Assembly (NCBI RefSeq): GCF_947648125.1
Contig: NZ_CANSMR010000013.1
Span: 1-64,000 of the forward strand
Direction of reading: 5' to 3'
Origin: an uncultured Bradyrhizobium sp.
GTDB taxonomy: Bacteria; Pseudomonadota; Alphaproteobacteria; Rhizobiales; Xanthobacteraceae
DNA length: 64,000 nucleotides
Shown here: piece by piece, positions 29,019 to 34,640 of the stretch
How positions within the stretch are numbered: position 1 is the stretch's first letter
Layout: every line of letters begins with the position of its first letter
Position numbers and translations under genes: made by a program
Notes under the pieces: generated by a model
What the model saw: only the letters and a program-made list of their open reading frames with translations
Databases searched by the model: none
Told to the model about the DNA's origin: nothing

Positions 29019-29561
29019 TCACATCCCTTCCGGCCCACGCGTGATCGCGGCCACCCCGGTTCGTGACACCTCGACCAGGCCCAGCGGGCGCATCAGGTCG
29101 ATGAACTGATTGATCTTGGACGAATTGCCCGTGATCTCGAACACGAAGCTCTCGGTCGTGGCATCGATCACCCGGGCGCGGAATGCATCCGCCAGCCGCA
29201 GCGCCTCGACGCGGTGATCGCCACCGCCCCTCACCTTGACCATCGCAAGCTCGCGCTCGATCGAGCTGCCGGTCAGCGTCATGTCGACGACGCGGTAGAC
29301 CGGGATCATGCGGTCGAGCTGATGCTTGATCTGCTGGATCACCATCGGCGTGCCCGTGGTGACGATGGTGATCCGCGAGAGATGTTTCTGACTCTCGGTT
29401 TCCGAAACCGTGAGACTCTCGATGTTGTAGCCGCGGCCGGAGAACAGCCCGATCACGCGCGCGAGCACGCCGGGCTCGTTCTGCACGAGAACGGACAGCG
29501 TGTGCGTCTCGTTCGGATCGTGACGCTCTTCGAGGAAGTAGGCGGATGCGGGCTGGTTCAT
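29019..29561 (-). CDS. ilvN: Acetolactate synthase, small regulatory subunit
   Basis: A 180-residue regulatory subunit (IlvN/IlvH). An N-terminal ACT domain reads THTLSVLVQNEPGVLARVIGLFSGRGYNIESLTV (two blocks), followed by the second half that activates the catalytic subunit. It confers valine feedback inhibition. Its length is typical of the longer IlvH type. It is separated from ilvB by a dehydratase gene, which is an unusual arrangement. The symbol ilvH would be equally acceptable. Confidence 0.95.
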   Translation of the reverse strand: MNQPASAYFLEERHDPNETHTLSVLVQNEPGVLARVIGLFSGRGYNIESLTVSETESQKHLSRITIVTTGTPMVIQQIKHQLDRMIPVYRVVDMTLTGSSIERELAMVKVRGGGDHRVEALRLADAFRARVIDATTESFVFEITGNSSKINQFIDLMRPLGLVEVSRTGVAAITRGPEGM

Positions 29562-29582: not shown

Positions 29583-30569
29583 TCACGCCACCGCCCGCTG
29601 GGCGGCAGGCGCAGCATCCGTCCCGATCCAGGTTCGGAACAGATCGAAATCGATATTGCCGCCGCTCAGGATCAGGCCGACCCGCTTGCCGGCGAGCTTG
29701 CTCTTTTCCTGCAGCGCGGCTGCGAGCGCCGCGGCGCCTGCGCCCTCGGCGAGATTGTGAGTGTCGGTCCAGTAGGCGCGGATCGCCTGCCCGACCTCGT
29801 CGTCGGTGACCTGCGCGATGCGCGAGGCGCCCTTGCGGATCAGGGCGAATGCATCCGCGTCCGGAATCCGCGTCGCCATGCCGTCGGCCAGCGTGTTGCT
29901 GGTCTCGGTGGTCACGATCTTGCCGGCCGCGAACGAGAGCGCATAGGACGGCGCCTCGGTCGACTGCACGCCGACGATCTCGGTCTTCAGGCCGAGCAGG
30001 TCGCGCGCCATGATGCAGCCGGAGATGCCGGAGCCCTGCCCGATCGGCACATAGAGAATGTCGAGGTCGGGCGCTGATCGAAACAATTCCAGCGCGTAGG
30101 TCGCGACACCCAGCACCAGGTCCGGGTGGAACGACGGCACCATGTGTAGGCCGGCGAACTGGGCGCGGCGCTCTGCCTCTTCGCGCGCGGCCTGAAAGTC
30201 CTCGCCGTGCTCGACGAGTTCGGCACCGAACGCGTGCATGGCGCGGTTCTTCTCGACCGAATTGCCGCGCGGCACGTAGATCACCGCCGGCACGCCGTGG
30301 CGGCTGGCGGCAAACGCCAGACTCTGGCCATGATTGCCGCGCGTCGCCGAGATGATGCCGGGCACATCGGGCCGCTCGCGCTTCAGCCGCTCGAGATAGA
30401 CCAGACCGCCGCGCACCTTGAAGGCGCCGATCGGCGTGTGGTTCTCATGCTTGACCACGACCTCGGTGCCGAGCCGCTCGGCCAGCAACGGCCAGGCATA
30501 CGCCGGCGTCGCCGGCACCGCGGTGCCGACGATCCTGTGCGCGCGCTCGAGCTCGCTGAGATCAAACAT
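29583..30569 (-). CDS. Threonine/serine dehydratase-type PLP enzyme
   Basis: A 328-residue fold-type II PLP enzyme. The cofactor lysine is Lys51 in HTPIGAFKVRGG, the asparagine loop is ATRGNHGQSLAFAAS and the phosphate-binding glycine loop is GQGSGISG. It lacks the C-terminal ACT domain of biosynthetic IlvA, so it would not be isoleucine-inhibited in the usual way. Deamination of threonine gives 2-oxobutyrate, the isoleucine precursor used by the enzyme encoded on either side. Hydroxyectoine-type and other dehydratases share this fold, so substrate is not certain. ATG 30569 is 14 bases after ilvB. Confidence 0.85.
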   Translation of the reverse strand: MFDLSELERAHRIVGTAVPATPAYAWPLLAERLGTEVVVKHENHTPIGAFKVRGGLVYLERLKRERPDVPGIISATRGNHGQSLAFAASRHGVPAVIYVPRGNSVEKNRAMHAFGAELVEHGEDFQAAREEAERRAQFAGLHMVPSFHPDLVLGVATYALELFRSAPDLDILYVPIGQGSGISGCIMARDLLGLKTEIVGVQSTEAPSYALSFAAGKIVTTETSNTLADGMATRIPDADAFALIRKGASRIAQVTDDEVGQAIRAYWTDTHNLAEGAGAAALAAALQEKSKLAGKRVGLILSGGNIDFDLFRTWIGTDAAPAAQRAVA

Positions 30570-30582
30570 GGCCCCCCTCACC

Positions 30583-32358
30583 TCACACCAGCGCCTTGCC
30601 GCCGGCGAAGGCCTTCGCGGTGGCCTCGTCGGTCGCTTCTTCCGGCAGCAGCATCTCGTTGTGCGCCTTGCCCGACGGGATCATCGGGAAGCAGTTCTCG
30701 AGCGCCGCAACACGGCAGTCGAACAGCACCGGGCGCCTGATCGAGATCATCTCCTTGATCGCGCCGTCGAGGTCGGACGGCTTGGTCGCCTGCAGGCCGA
30801 CGCAGCCATAGGCATCGGCGAGCTTGACGAAGTCCGGCAGCGCCTCGGAGTACGAATGCGACAGGCGGTTGCCGTGCAGCAGTTGCTGCCACTGCCGCAC
30901 CATGCCCATGTACTGGTTGTTCAGGATGAAGATCTTGATCGGCAGCTCGAACTGGACCGCGGTCGACATCTCCTGGATCGTCATCTGCACCGAGGCGTCG
31001 CCGGCAATGTCGATCACCAGGCTGTCCGGATGCGCCACCTGCACGCCGACTGCGGCCGGCAGGCCGTAGCCCATGGTGCCGAGACCACCTGAGGTCATCC
31101 AGCGATGCGGCTCCTCGAAGCCGAAGAACTGCGCGGCCCACATCTGGTGCTGACCGACTTCGGTCGTGATGTAGGTATCCTTGCCGCGGGTCAGCTCGAA
31201 CAGGCGCTGGATCGCGTATTGCGGCAGGATGATATCGTTGTTCTTGCGGTAGGACAGCGAGTTGCGCGCGCGCCATTGCGCGATCTGCTGCCACCATGCC
31301 TTGATGTCGGGCTTCTTGGCTTCCGCCTTGAACACCTGCAGCAGGTCGCCGAGCACATTGCCGGCGTCGCCGATGATCGGCACGTCGACGCGGATGTTCT
31401 TGTTGATCGAGGACGGGTCGATATCGATGTGGATCTTCTTCGAGCCCGGCGAGAAGGCATCGACGCGGCCGGTGATGCGGTCGTCGAAGCGCGCGCCGAC
31501 GCACAGCATGACGTCGCAATCATGCATCGTCATGTTGGCTTCGTAGGTGCCGTGCATGCCGAGCATGCCGAGCCAGTTCGGCCCCGACGCCGGATAGGCG
31601 CCCAGTCCCATCAGGGTCGAGGTGATGGGGAAACCGGTCGTCTCCACCAGCTGACGCAGCAGCTTTGAGGCCTCCGGACCCGAATTGATCACGCCGCCGC
31701 CGGAATAGATGACGGGACGTTTGGCATTGGCGAGCAGCGCCACCGCCTTGCGGATCTGGGTCGCATCGCCCTTCACGCGCGGTGTGTAGGAGATGTGAAC
31801 GTCCGACTTGCGCGGCGGATGATAGGTGCCGGTGGCGAACTGCACGTCCTTCGGCACGTCGACCAGCACCGGACCCGGGCGGCCGGTGGTGGCGACATAG
31901 AAGGCTTCGTGCAGCACCTTGGCGAGGTCGTTGATGTCGCGCACCAGCCAGTTGTGCTTGGTGGAGGGCCGGGTGATGCCGACGGTGTCGCACTCCTGGA
32001 AGGCGTCGTTGCCGATCAGGTGGGTCGGCACCTGGCCGGTGATGCAGACCAGCGGGATCGAATCCATCAGCGCATCGGTCAGCGGCGTCACCATGTTGGT
32101 GGCGCCGGGCCCCGACGTCACCAGCACCACGCCGGGCTTGCCGGTCGAGCGGGCATAGCCTTCGGCGGCATGGCCGGCGCCCTGCTCGTGGCGAACCAGG
32201 ATGTGCTCGACCTCGCTCTGCTGGAAAATCTCGTCGTAGATCGGAAGCACCGCGCCGCCGGGATAGCCGAAGACATGCTGCACGCCGTGATCGATGAGCG
32301 CGCGCACGATCATCGCGGCGCCGGTCATCTGATTGGGATCGTGGCTCTTGTCGGTCAT
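30583..32358 (-). CDS. ilvB: Acetolactate synthase, large catalytic subunit
   Basis: A 591-residue ThDP enzyme joining two pyruvates, or pyruvate and 2-oxobutyrate. Evidence: VFGYPGGAVLPIYDEI, the catalytic glutamate in VRHEQGAGHAAEGYARSTGK, the FAD-binding middle domain, and the ThDP motif beginning GDASVQMTIQEMSTAVQF and ending ILNNQYMGMVRQW. GGAGCG precedes the ATG. It is the first structural gene of the ilv cluster. A leader peptide rich in Ile, Leu and Val and a terminator hairpin lie 75 to 185 bases upstream, so attenuation is probable. Confidence 0.97.
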   Translation of the reverse strand: MTDKSHDPNQMTGAAMIVRALIDHGVQHVFGYPGGAVLPIYDEIFQQSEVEHILVRHEQGAGHAAEGYARSTGKPGVVLVTSGPGATNMVTPLTDALMDSIPLVCITGQVPTHLIGNDAFQECDTVGITRPSTKHNWLVRDINDLAKVLHEAFYVATTGRPGPVLVDVPKDVQFATGTYHPPRKSDVHISYTPRVKGDATQIRKAVALLANAKRPVIYSGGGVINSGPEASKLLRQLVETTGFPITSTLMGLGAYPASGPNWLGMLGMHGTYEANMTMHDCDVMLCVGARFDDRITGRVDAFSPGSKKIHIDIDPSSINKNIRVDVPIIGDAGNVLGDLLQVFKAEAKKPDIKAWWQQIAQWRARNSLSYRKNNDIILPQYAIQRLFELTRGKDTYITTEVGQHQMWAAQFFGFEEPHRWMTSGGLGTMGYGLPAAVGVQVAHPDSLVIDIAGDASVQMTIQEMSTAVQFELPIKIFILNNQYMGMVRQWQQLLHGNRLSHSYSEALPDFVKLADAYGCVGLQATKPSDLDGAIKEMISIRRPVLFDCRVAALENCFPMIPSGKAHNEMLLPEEATDEATAKAFAGGKALV

Positions 32359-32431
32359 GGTTCGCTCCGGATGCGCTTGTTTTTGCGCGGCTTTTGTCAG
32401 TTCTCGTCAGTTCTGTTTCGGGCAATAAAAA

Positions 32432-32448
32432 GGGGCCCTCGAGGCCCC
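32432..32448 (-). terminator. Leader terminator (attenuator) upstream of ilvB
   Basis: On the minus strand GGGGCC-TCGAG-GGCCCC forms a GC-rich stem followed by TTTTTATT, a standard intrinsic terminator. It stands between the leader peptide and the ilvB start, so readthrough must be regulated. Just upstream an inverted repeat GCACACCGCC/GGCGGTGTGC (32489-32498 and 32451-32460) encloses GGATGGC/GCCATCC, giving a nested hairpin around the leader stop codon. Which of these is the antiterminator is not resolved. Confidence 0.75.
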
Positions 32449-32476
32449 ATGCACACCGCCCGAATTTGGATGGCCG

Positions 32477-32542
32477 CTAGCCATCCCCGGCGGTGTGCCT
32501 GGGTACGACGGCGATAAGGAGTTTGGTAATAATGTTGCGCAC
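32477..32542 (-). CDS. ilvB leader peptide (attenuator), 21 residues
   Basis: A short frame from GTG at 32542 to TAG at 32477. Residues 4-13 read IITKLLIAVV, so seven of ten are isoleucine, leucine or valine, the products controlled by the downstream genes. The stop codon falls in the loop of a nested hairpin and a terminator follows 30 bases later. These are the parts of an amino-acid attenuator as known in proteobacterial ilv operons. A weak GGAAGA lies 12 bases before the GTG; the exact start is uncertain. This frame is far too short for ordinary gene calling. Confidence 0.8.
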   Translation of the reverse strand: MRNIITKLLIAVVPRHTAGDG

Positions 32543-32715
32543 GAGACGACCCAGTCTTCCCAAAGGTTGCGCGAACATAGCGGCCAAAGCCCGAATGTCA
32601 AGGCAAGGCAAGCAGTTTCGCGATTTTTGAACTGTAACGGGGTTCCAGCCGTTCGGCGAGTGTTTTTGCGCGGCGCAACGCGCATGGCAGACGGGCGCGC
32701 GGTGGCGCCGGCCCG

Positions 32716-32801
32716 GTAGCCCGGATGGGGCGCAGCGAAATCCGGGACGGTCTACCCGCGGGGAATAGACCCCGGATTGCGCTGCGCTCCATCCGGGCTA
32801 C
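32716..32801. repeat. Dispersed palindromic repeat (GTAGCCCGGATG type)
   Basis: GTAGCCCGGATGGGGCGCAG opens and GCTCCATCCGGGCTAC closes an 86-base element that can fold on itself, with CCGGG/CCCGG pairs inside. The sequence is common between genes in many proteobacteria. It lies between the ilv leader and the end of miaA; the remaining 170 bases of this gap show nothing else. Confidence 0.8.
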
Positions 32802-32806
32802 GGGGG

Positions 32807-33736
32807 CTATGAGATCCGGCCTTCCAGCCACTCCCTCGCAGCCTCAGGCACCACCCATTCGAATTCCGGCAGCTGGTGGCGAAACCAGGTGAACTGGCGC
32901 TTGGCGTAGTGGCGGGTGTCGGCCCGGCCGATCTCGGCGGCGGCCTGCCGGCTGATCTCCCCCTTGAGGTGACGGATCAGCGCCGGTATGCCATGGGCCT
33001 TCATGGCCGGCAGCAACGGATCAAGCCCGCGCGCGGCCAGCGCCGCGATCTCGTCGAGCGCGCCTTCATCGAGCATCACACCGAACCGGGCGTCGATCCG
33101 CGCGTAGAGCCGCTCGCGCTCCGGCGCCAGAAACAGCGCGTGGAATTGGCCCGGTGGCAGCAGCGGCGGCAGGCCATCGCGATGCCAGTCCGGCAGCGGG
33201 CGGCCGGTGGCCTCGACGACCTCGAGCGCCCGCGCGATGCGGGTGCGGTCGCGCGGCTTCAGCCGTTCGGCCGATAACGGATCGCGCGCCGCAAGCTCGG
33301 CATGCAGCACCTCGACGCCGCGCTGCTCCAGCCTTGCGCGCACGCTGTCGCGCACATCAGGGGGGATCGGCGGCACCGCCGACAGCCCGCGTGTCAGCGC
33401 CTTGAAGTAGAGGCCCGAGCCGCCGATGAAGATCGGCAGGCGTTTGTCGGCACGCGCCTCGCCGAGCACCTTGGCCGCGTCGGTCACCCAGGCGCCCGCG
33501 GAGAAATTCACGCCGGCGTCGACATGGCCGTAGAGCCTGTGCGGAACCTGTGCCTCCTCGCCAGCGGTCGGCCGCGCGGTGATGATCCGGAGGTCGCGAT
33601 AGACCTGCATGGAGTCTGTGTTGATCACGACCCCGCCGGTCCGCTGCGCAAGCTCGAGCGCCAGGGCCGACTTGCCGCTGGCGGTCGGCCCTGCGATAAG
33701 CACTGCCTTGTCCAACAATCCTGAATGCGCCTGCAT
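32807..33736 (-). CDS. miaA: tRNA dimethylallyltransferase
   Basis: A 309-residue enzyme that prenylates adenosine 37 of tRNAs reading UNN codons. The P-loop [15 protein letters not shown] (from residue 16), the [18 protein letters not shown] segment and the C-terminal tRNA-binding region ([17 protein letters not shown]) are all present. ATG 33736 is preceded on its strand by GAGGGAC. It shares the four bases CATG with the start codon of the divergent serB gene, leaving no intergenic space. GTG or TTG codons a few residues inside could be the real start instead. Confidence 0.95.
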
Positions 33737-34640
33737 GTCCCTCGTTGCCACGCTGATCTGCAATCCTGCAAGCCCCGCGCTCGACGCCACCATCGTCGAC
33801 GGTGCGCGGGCCGTGCTGCCCTCACCGGGCCCGGCGCAGTGGCTGTTCAACGAAGTCGCCGTCGACATTCCGTTCGAGAGCCAAGATTCTAGCGGAGACG
33901 CCATCAAGACCATCGAAGAGCGCCTGCGCCAGGCCCGCGGCGACCTGCCGATCGACATTGTCGTGCAGCCTCGGATCGGCCGGCGCAAGAAGCTTTTTCT
34001 GGCCGACATGGATTCGACCATGATCGGCCAGGAGTGCATCGACGAGCTCGCCGATTTCGCCGGGCTGAAAGCCCATGTCGCTGATATCACCGAACGCGCG
34101 ATGCGCGGCGAGATCGAGTTCGAGTCGGCGCTGCGCGAGCGCGTCGCCCTGCTCAAGGGCCTGCCGGTCAGCGTCGTCGACGAGGTGCTGGAGAAGCGCA
34201 TCACGCCGACGCCGGGCGGCCGCGCGCTGGTCATGACCATGCGCGCGCACGGCGCCTATACCTGCCTGATCTCCGGCGGCTTCACGTTGTTCACCAAGGT
34301 GGTCGCGGAGAAGATCGGCTTCCAGGAGAACCGCGCCAACCAGTTGCAGGTCGCGGACGGCAAGCTGACCGGCGAAGTGGTCGAGCCGATCCTCGGCCGC
34401 GCCACCAAGCTCGCCACCCTGGTCGAGCTGACCGAATCCTTCGACCTCGACGACATCGACACGCTGGTCACCGGCGACGGCGCCAACGATCTCGGCATGA
34501 TCCAGGCCGCAGGTCTCGGCGTCGCCTATCACGCCAAGCCCGCGGTCGCAGCCGCCGCGGCGGCGCGGATCGATCACGGCGACCTCACCGCGCTGTTGTA
34601 CGCGCAGGGCTATCGCCGGGATGAGTTCGTCGAGGGGTAG
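33735..34640 (+). CDS. serB: Phosphoserine phosphatase
   Basis: A 301-residue HAD-family enzyme removing phosphate from phosphoserine, the last step of serine synthesis. The nucleophile is Asp91 in [13 protein letters not shown], the motif II serine is in LISGGFTLF and motif III/IV is [11 protein letters not shown]. The first 80 residues form the regulatory N-terminal domain usual in SerB. Length is typical. The ATG at 33735 overlaps the miaA ATG on the other strand. No clear Shine-Dalgarno is visible, as its position falls within miaA codons. Confidence 0.95.

Follow-up and report, generated by a model that had tools for sequence, protein, structure and literature searches.

A probable ribosome-mediated attenuator before ilvB in Bradyrhizobium, related to the RNA family RF02502

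Directly upstream of ilvB in an uncultured Bradyrhizobium sp. lies a conserved leader in which a short frame rich in Ile, Leu and Val (ILV) codons is followed by a nested hairpin and an intrinsic terminator, and in which the outer stem of the hairpin extends into the terminator through a CCCA:UGGG pairing whose partners co-vary in the Bradyrhizobium family. We consider it very probable that this leader is an amino-acid attenuator, whatever its internal mechanism, and probable that it controls transcription of the ilvB operon by ribosome-mediated attenuation, with the CCCA:UGGG mechanism in full. If so, a leader peptide, attenuator and terminator can be described for a core biosynthetic operon of Bradyrhizobium, and the attenuator would allow read-on into the enzyme genes when Ile, Leu or Val is scarce, the role of Val being doubtful.

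The leader and its conservation before ilvB

The window, by which we mean the whole 64,000-nt stretch that was analysed, carries on the minus strand of 32601-32427, in this order, a promoter-like site, the ILV-rich frame, the nested hairpin and the terminator, which ends 68 nt before ilvB. The features are as follows.

32574-32601, minus strand: putative sigma-70-like promoter, TTGACA, 16-nt spacer, TATGTT (consensus match at 10/12 positions)
32477-32542, minus strand: leader peptide frame, 21 codons plus TAG, VRNIITKLLIAVVPRHTAGDG (GTG start at 32542, TAG at 32479-32477)
32504-32533, minus strand: putative regulatory codons 4-13, ATT ATT ... CTC CTT ATC ... GTC GTA (ATT, CTT and GTA near-fixed in the genus leaders)
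32500-32503, minus strand: candidate antiterminator, 5' side, CCCA (codon 14 plus base 1 of codon 15; in the nascent fold, partner of TGGG)
32489-32498, minus strand: outer stem, 5' arm, GCACACCGCC (folding; 99.0% of cells paired)
32468-32486, minus strand: inner hairpin, GGATGGC / GCCATCC, its loop holding the stop codon (98.6% of cells paired)
32451-32460, minus strand: outer stem, 3' arm, GGCGGTGTGC (folding, alignment)
32446-32449, minus strand: candidate antiterminator, 3' side, TGGG, the last three bases of which open the 5' arm of the terminator (folding, co-variation)
32427-32448, minus strand: intrinsic terminator, GGGGCCTCGAGGGCCCC TTTTT, with a 7-bp GC-rich hairpin (92.6% of cells paired)
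30583-32358, minus strand: ilvB, acetolactate synthase large subunit, 591 aa (NF006581.0, 1197.1 bits, cut-off 974)
29583-30581, minus strand: threonine dehydratase-like gene (NF004771.0, 545.1 bits, cut-off 317)
29019-29561, minus strand: ilvN, acetolactate synthase small subunit (NF008864.0, 231.5 bits, cut-off 119)

We take ilvB, whose enzyme serves isoleucine, leucine and valine synthesis alike, to be the gene under attenuator control. The threonine dehydratase-like gene has the same orientation as ilvB and ilvN, which flank it, and is perhaps a member of the ilvB operon.

Only one promoter-like site was found (0.1 expected from shuffles). Its two boxes are mostly retained in the leader alignment, and transcription would start near 32568. 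Around this likely start, CGCGCAACCTTTGGGAAG (32573-32556) is invariant at all but one position among 31 aligned leaders. Further upstream, the neighbouring ORF (32807-34240) reads, from its sequence, as miaA, and an imperfect inverted repeat (32712-32805; 35-nt arms, 91% complementary, 24 nt spacing) lies between this ORF and the putative ilvB promoter. A sub-threshold match of the repeat to a microRNA model is probably due to chance.

The original prediction described a minus-strand frame of 21 codons with IITKLLIAVV at residues 4-13, seven of the ten being Ile, Leu or Val, and this frame was found where it had been placed. ILV richness on its own is not rare, since 19/1602 start codons of 12-45-codon frames in the window reach 7/10 ILV, 5 of these 19 belonging to the leader frame itself. 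The frame is also marked by its conservation. Of 43 distinct leaders of the genus, 25 start with ATG and 18 with GTG, and the stop codon is TAG in 40, TGA in 2 and TAA in 1. For the 42 leaders with 22 codons, codon 5 is ATT and codon 13 is GTA in 42/42, codon 10 is fixed as ATC, codon 9 is CTT in 41/42 and codon 4 encodes Ile in 40. In the 31 long ORFs of the window ATT, CTT and GTA are uncommon (11.5%, 9.3% and 4.2% of their own amino acid's codons), yet they are almost fixed in the leader frame. The nonsynonymous/synonymous ratio of pair differences over codons 1-13 of the 42 leaders, a measure that counts related sequences many times, is 0.82 in frame versus 11.94 and 4.0 in the other frames. 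Judged from these alignments, the leader has the short frame rich in pathway-product codons of a classic ilv attenuator (7/10 ILV, with a coding signature in the 42 aligned leaders), and the frame is presumably translated.

The stop codon had been placed in a nested hairpin, and TAG indeed lies in the 5-nt loop of the inner 7-bp hairpin, which is nested inside the 10-bp outer stem. Likewise, the GC-rich stem and T-run expected before ilvB correspond to a 7-bp hairpin followed by TTTTT (32448-32427), so that an intrinsic terminator separates the frame from the first structural gene, as in a classic ilv attenuator. The fold of 32570-32422 beats 200/200 dinucleotide shuffles (z -3.52). When pairing was scored on 31 of the 43 distinct genus leaders, 97.0% of cells in the two stems and the terminator were paired (0/500 shuffles as high) and 12 cells carried both-sided changes, a number reached by 0/500 shuffles. 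These changes fall in 4/24 pairs (41/500 shuffles as high), namely one pair of the outer stem (2/31 rows), one of the inner hairpin (2/31 rows) and two of the terminator (6 and 2 of 31 rows). A stable conserved structure before a biosynthetic operon might also be a riboswitch, or a protein-binding leader, that senses a metabolite directly. We regard this as extremely improbable, given that the in-frame stop is kept though the stop codon changes, that in-frame differences are mostly synonymous and that no riboswitch family matched the region.

Using blastn with 241 bases around the leader, we obtained a match in 194/195 genomes of the genus; the sole exception, G097, is 75% complete. The 51 genus loci that were read (30 returned, the window's own included, 20 picked from the list, and the window's again as L001) comprise 43 distinct leaders. 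Peptide and stop are kept across all 43, and the stems were scored on 31. Leader peptides at four named Bradyrhizobium loci (L112-L115) nearly match those of the genus set. With a 141-base query, blastn matched 25/119 genomes of the family, 5 of them Bradyrhizobium (the window's own included), and gave no match in 94/119 wider-family genomes. This search yielded 25 loci besides the window's own (4 of this genus; one genome gave two), and ilvB lies downstream in 24/25, at 55-110 nt from the terminator; the exception, L111, is a 34-base match. Beyond these, an IlvB search of genome contigs returned 594 relatives, of which the best 80 named ilvB genes were kept. Within 300 nt upstream of these best 80, a short frame with at least 4/6 ILV followed by a terminator was present in 61/80 versus 2/400 shuffled regions, and the same test did not find this layout in 19/80.

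The reading of the region as a leader peptide and attenuator was thereby upheld: the genus leaders retain the frame with its start and stop, the stems and the terminator, and the same layout precedes ilvB in other genera and families. Loss of the ILV codons or of the stem in close relatives had been named as what would speak against it; both are retained within the genus, and in other genera of the family Lys frequently replaces the Ile of codon 4.

Antiterminator pairing and folding around a stalled ribosome

The original prediction had noted a 10-base stem that did not overlap the terminator stem. Folding contradicts this, as the outer stem runs on past one G-A mismatch via CCCA:UGGG into the terminator's 5' arm. 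All 43 genus leaders pair at least 3 of the 4 extension positions into the terminator side, and 37 pair all 4; this count uses a fixed offset, by which L048 scored 3 pairs (4 in the swap test described below). In further genera of the family (rows L091-L110) the extension pairs are compensating, for example as CCCU:AGGG, CCUU:AAGG, ACCCUG:CAGGGU, ACCCU:AGGGU and GUCCCC:GGGGGC. When the 3' partners of the 26 distinct pairs were swapped among leaders, 7/1000 swaps matched the stability of the real set and 29/1000 its number of pairs. The swap test covered 67 leaders, with one genome present twice (L034, L088), and included L098 and L104, both wrongly anchored; by eye, each of these two forms a single continuous stem reaching into the terminator.

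A second co-variation test, against the terminator's 5' arm, was run by arm swaps in the Bradyrhizobium family. The flank containing CCCA did well (3/200 swaps as good), and the codon region (93/200), the inner part (46/200) and the 3' arm of the outer stem (163/200) gave higher counts. A signal came from the outer stem's 5' arm as well (1/200); it overlaps with the flank score, as in leaders folded with the extension the 5' arm holds the flank. Because the CCCA flank is nearly invariant inside the genus, co-variation support comes from the wider family.

Other families of the order were assessed with 29 loci (30 order loci less L079, a short locus). The outer-stem extension was not found there (459/500 swaps as good), and no region was seen to co-vary with the terminator's 5' arm (of 200 swaps, as good were 200 for the codons, 191 for the flank, 141 for the 5' arm, 186 for the inner part and 198 for the 3' arm). 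By these tests, support for CCCA:UGGG as an antiterminator is limited to the Bradyrhizobium family, while the layout itself appears widespread. A different candidate, CUGGGU (leader bases 20-25) with ACCCAG, taken from the 32570-32422 fold, was rejected, as its 5' sequence is lost in relatives.

Leaders were also folded with a ribosome placed on successive codons, using a footprint of 13 nt. In the nascent fold of 66 leaders (L098 left out), pairing of the CCCA:UGGG type formed in 65/66 with the ribosome at codon 9, again in 65/66 at codon 10, and in 0/66 at codon 12 or 13. The original prediction had the attenuator sensing all three branched-chain amino acids. Val is the doubtful one, because stalls at Val12 and Val13 cover CCCA with this footprint and the fold terminates.

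Full-length equilibrium folding gave a different picture. With a ribosome on codon 4, 39/43 genus leaders gave the terminator P > 0.5; the count was 38/43 for codon 5 and 43/43 for each of codons 8, 9 and 10, the leader of the window being among them. In the wider set, codons 9 and 10 gave 65/66. At equilibrium the window's own leader prefers the antiterminator at codons 4-7 only and the terminator from codon 8. With no ribosome, the terminator had P > 0.5 in 34/43 leaders, and the window leader folds into terminator or antiterminator depending on its exact ends (32570-32422 gives the terminator). The order loci, folded without L061 and L068 (terminator misplaced) and L079, have a dominant terminator in nearly all cases at the ribosome positions tried.

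Since a stalled ribosome does not keep the terminator from prevailing at equilibrium in most leaders, a kinetic switch would be required: the terminator's 3' arm must still be leaving the polymerase when the pairing acts. These equilibrium folds at codons 8-10 weaken the proposed mechanism, as does the loss of Ile4 in other genera: the Ile4-Ile5 pair, which performs best in the folds, is not kept there because of the frequent Lys at codon 4. It had been suggested earlier that the mechanism may differ from a standard one. A different mechanism need not be assumed, because an overlapping antiterminator can be drawn and co-varies; but at equilibrium most leaders prefer the terminator to it, and the mechanism drawn here is a tentative one.

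Leader-peptide attenuation could also proceed by another route (another pairing, coupling, pausing or Rho), with no CCCA:UGGG competition and the extended stem incidental. The dominance of the terminator at equilibrium, in most leaders despite a stalled ribosome and in nearly all order loci tried, would fit such a route, as would the failure to find the overlapping pairing in other families of the order. It accounts poorly for the partner co-variation in the Bradyrhizobium family and for the nascent pairing seen in 65/66 leaders at codon 9 or 10, and we consider it unlikely.

Under the preferred CCCA:UGGG mechanism, RNA polymerase would start near 32568 with a ribosome trailing on the leader peptide. 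With ample charged tRNA-Ile and tRNA-Leu, the ribosome would translate as far as the TAG, which lies in the hairpin loop, open the nested hairpin and cover the 5' half of the antiterminator, leaving the terminator free to form and to release a transcript of about 140 nt. When Ile or Leu is short, the ribosome would stall on codons 4-10 and the long outer stem would form, extending via CCCA:UGGG into the terminator's 5' arm and holding that arm while the polymerase enters ilvB.

Comparison with described attenuators

Attenuation of ilv operons in proteobacteria, cited as known in the original prediction, is documented in the literature. An alphaproteobacterial ilvB leader peptide was described before 2005 (Corbino et al, 2005, PMC1273637, citing Vitreschak et al, 2004), and an S. 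meliloti ilvIH cis-regulatory element is listed with the same citation (PMC2573895); the window leader is likened to these by description. Attenuation of Caulobacter ilvBN is likewise cited (PMC4117421, citing Tarleton et al, 1994), and the legend of Figure 6 in the same paper mentions a leader CDS regulating ilvIH. As described there, the Caulobacter crescentus ilvBN attenuator resembles the window leader in belonging to an alphaproteobacterium, in having tandem Ile and Val codons in a leader before the acetolactate synthase genes and in ending in a rho-independent terminator. An ilvB motif of a different kind is described for Leptospira in PMC8632094. An Ile/Leu/Val attenuator of the window's kind was therefore already known, having been published for the same bacterial class at the same genes. 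The type of control is long known and ordinary, and the window element adds one more Ile/Leu/Val attenuator; the understanding of attenuation itself is unchanged. The gains are small: a named antiterminator that can be tested, the prediction that the Val codons do not switch and an identity for RF02502.

A second point of comparison is the Sinorhizobium trp leader, which carries Trp codons. According to papers on rnTrpL/peTrpL (PMC7143759, PMC10117765), it too is a rhizobial leader-peptide attenuator of an amino-acid operon that releases a short RNA; it differs from the window leader in its leaderless start, and the known trans functions belong to the trp system.

The main texts of two Bradyrhizobium papers on start sites and small ORFs (PMC4842269, PMC5082802) mention neither ilv nor a leader peptide, and a search of PMC2965389, PMC4833913, PMC3927594 and PMC3738593 gave no ilv passage. 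Within the literature searched, which covered few subscription journals, we found no paper that draws the CCCA:UGGG antiterminator or equates RF02502 with an attenuator.

Relation to the Rfam family RF02502

RF02502 (Atu_C8) is an Rfam family filed as a Rhizobiales sRNA. In a scan of 241 bases of the window its model matches 32534-32417 at E 6.1e-05, and the 32 bits scored fall short of the gathering score (50); the match spans the full model (positions 1-122 aligned) and occupies the same genomic place. Scores elsewhere range higher, with 40.3 bits for R. palustris L116, 114-124 for the Rhizobium loci and 121.2 for Agrobacterium L132. The window leader and RF02502 share an ILV frame, an outer and an inner stem, a terminator and the position before ilvB. 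They are unlike in that the window leader lies under the gathering score and that the 29 order loci showed no continuation of the outer stem into the terminator. As the alignment has it, the window leader is a divergent relative of RF02502.

Across the order, RF02502 matches at E <= 0.001 were present in 77/150 genomes, 22 of them over the cut-off; the genomes with no match include G021 and G063, two genomes of the genus that have the leader. We examined 30 of the 79 order matches listed, and ilvB was downstream in 29/30. A short ILV-rich frame (4-8 of 12 residues) was present at the match in each of the 30. Conversely, scanning upstream of 40 named ilvB loci (the first 20, with 19/20 matched, and 20 chosen from the rest, with 13/20 matched) gave an RF02502 match at E up to 0.1 in 32/40, 23 of them above the gathering score. 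In the loci examined RF02502 is mostly an ilvB attenuator, because the matches precede ilvB together with ILV frames and terminators; in these loci, then, a family that Rfam lists as an sRNA seems to act in cis as an attenuator. The sRNA itself is likely to be the terminated ilvB leader transcript.

RF02502 might, as filed, be an independent trans-acting small RNA in which the ILV-rich frame is incidental. The match at 32534-32417 would allow this, the terminator would free a short RNA, and the Sinorhizobium trp attenuator RNA is described as acting in trans (PMC7143759). Against an independent role stand the position of the matches directly before ilvB in 29/30 order loci and 32/40 scanned named loci, the ILV-rich short frame in all 30 order loci and the coding selection on the leader frame, and we hold this explanation to be very unlikely. 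A broader proposal keeps the attenuator and adds to it: RF02502 would be the ilvB/ilvI attenuator of the order, its antiterminator re-invented within the order (the outer-stem extension in the Bradyrhizobium family, another device elsewhere), and its leader RNA perhaps also trans-acting, like the trp leader. Taken as a whole we find this doubtful.

Several minor observations were made at these loci. In L056 (G319) an RF02502-type leader (match at 1501-1621) precedes not ilvB but a gene for a Bcr/CflA-family MFS transporter, and its short frame holds several Ile and Val; the transporter ORF is listed at 1567-2844, a start inside the leader, and the true start is probably further on. One genome (G217) has a second copy of RF02502 (L082, 1950-2070, 115.3 bits), which precedes another ORF, by its sequence an apparent ilvB homologue. 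Just 3' of ilvB, L114 (2602-2662) and L112 (2610-2670) have sub-threshold matches to the Rfam whalefall-1 family (29 and 24.6 bits; gathering score 37). Finally, ATTGCC(T) recurs after the T-run of the terminator in many order loci (e.g., L055), where it can pair with the GGCA before the outer stem.
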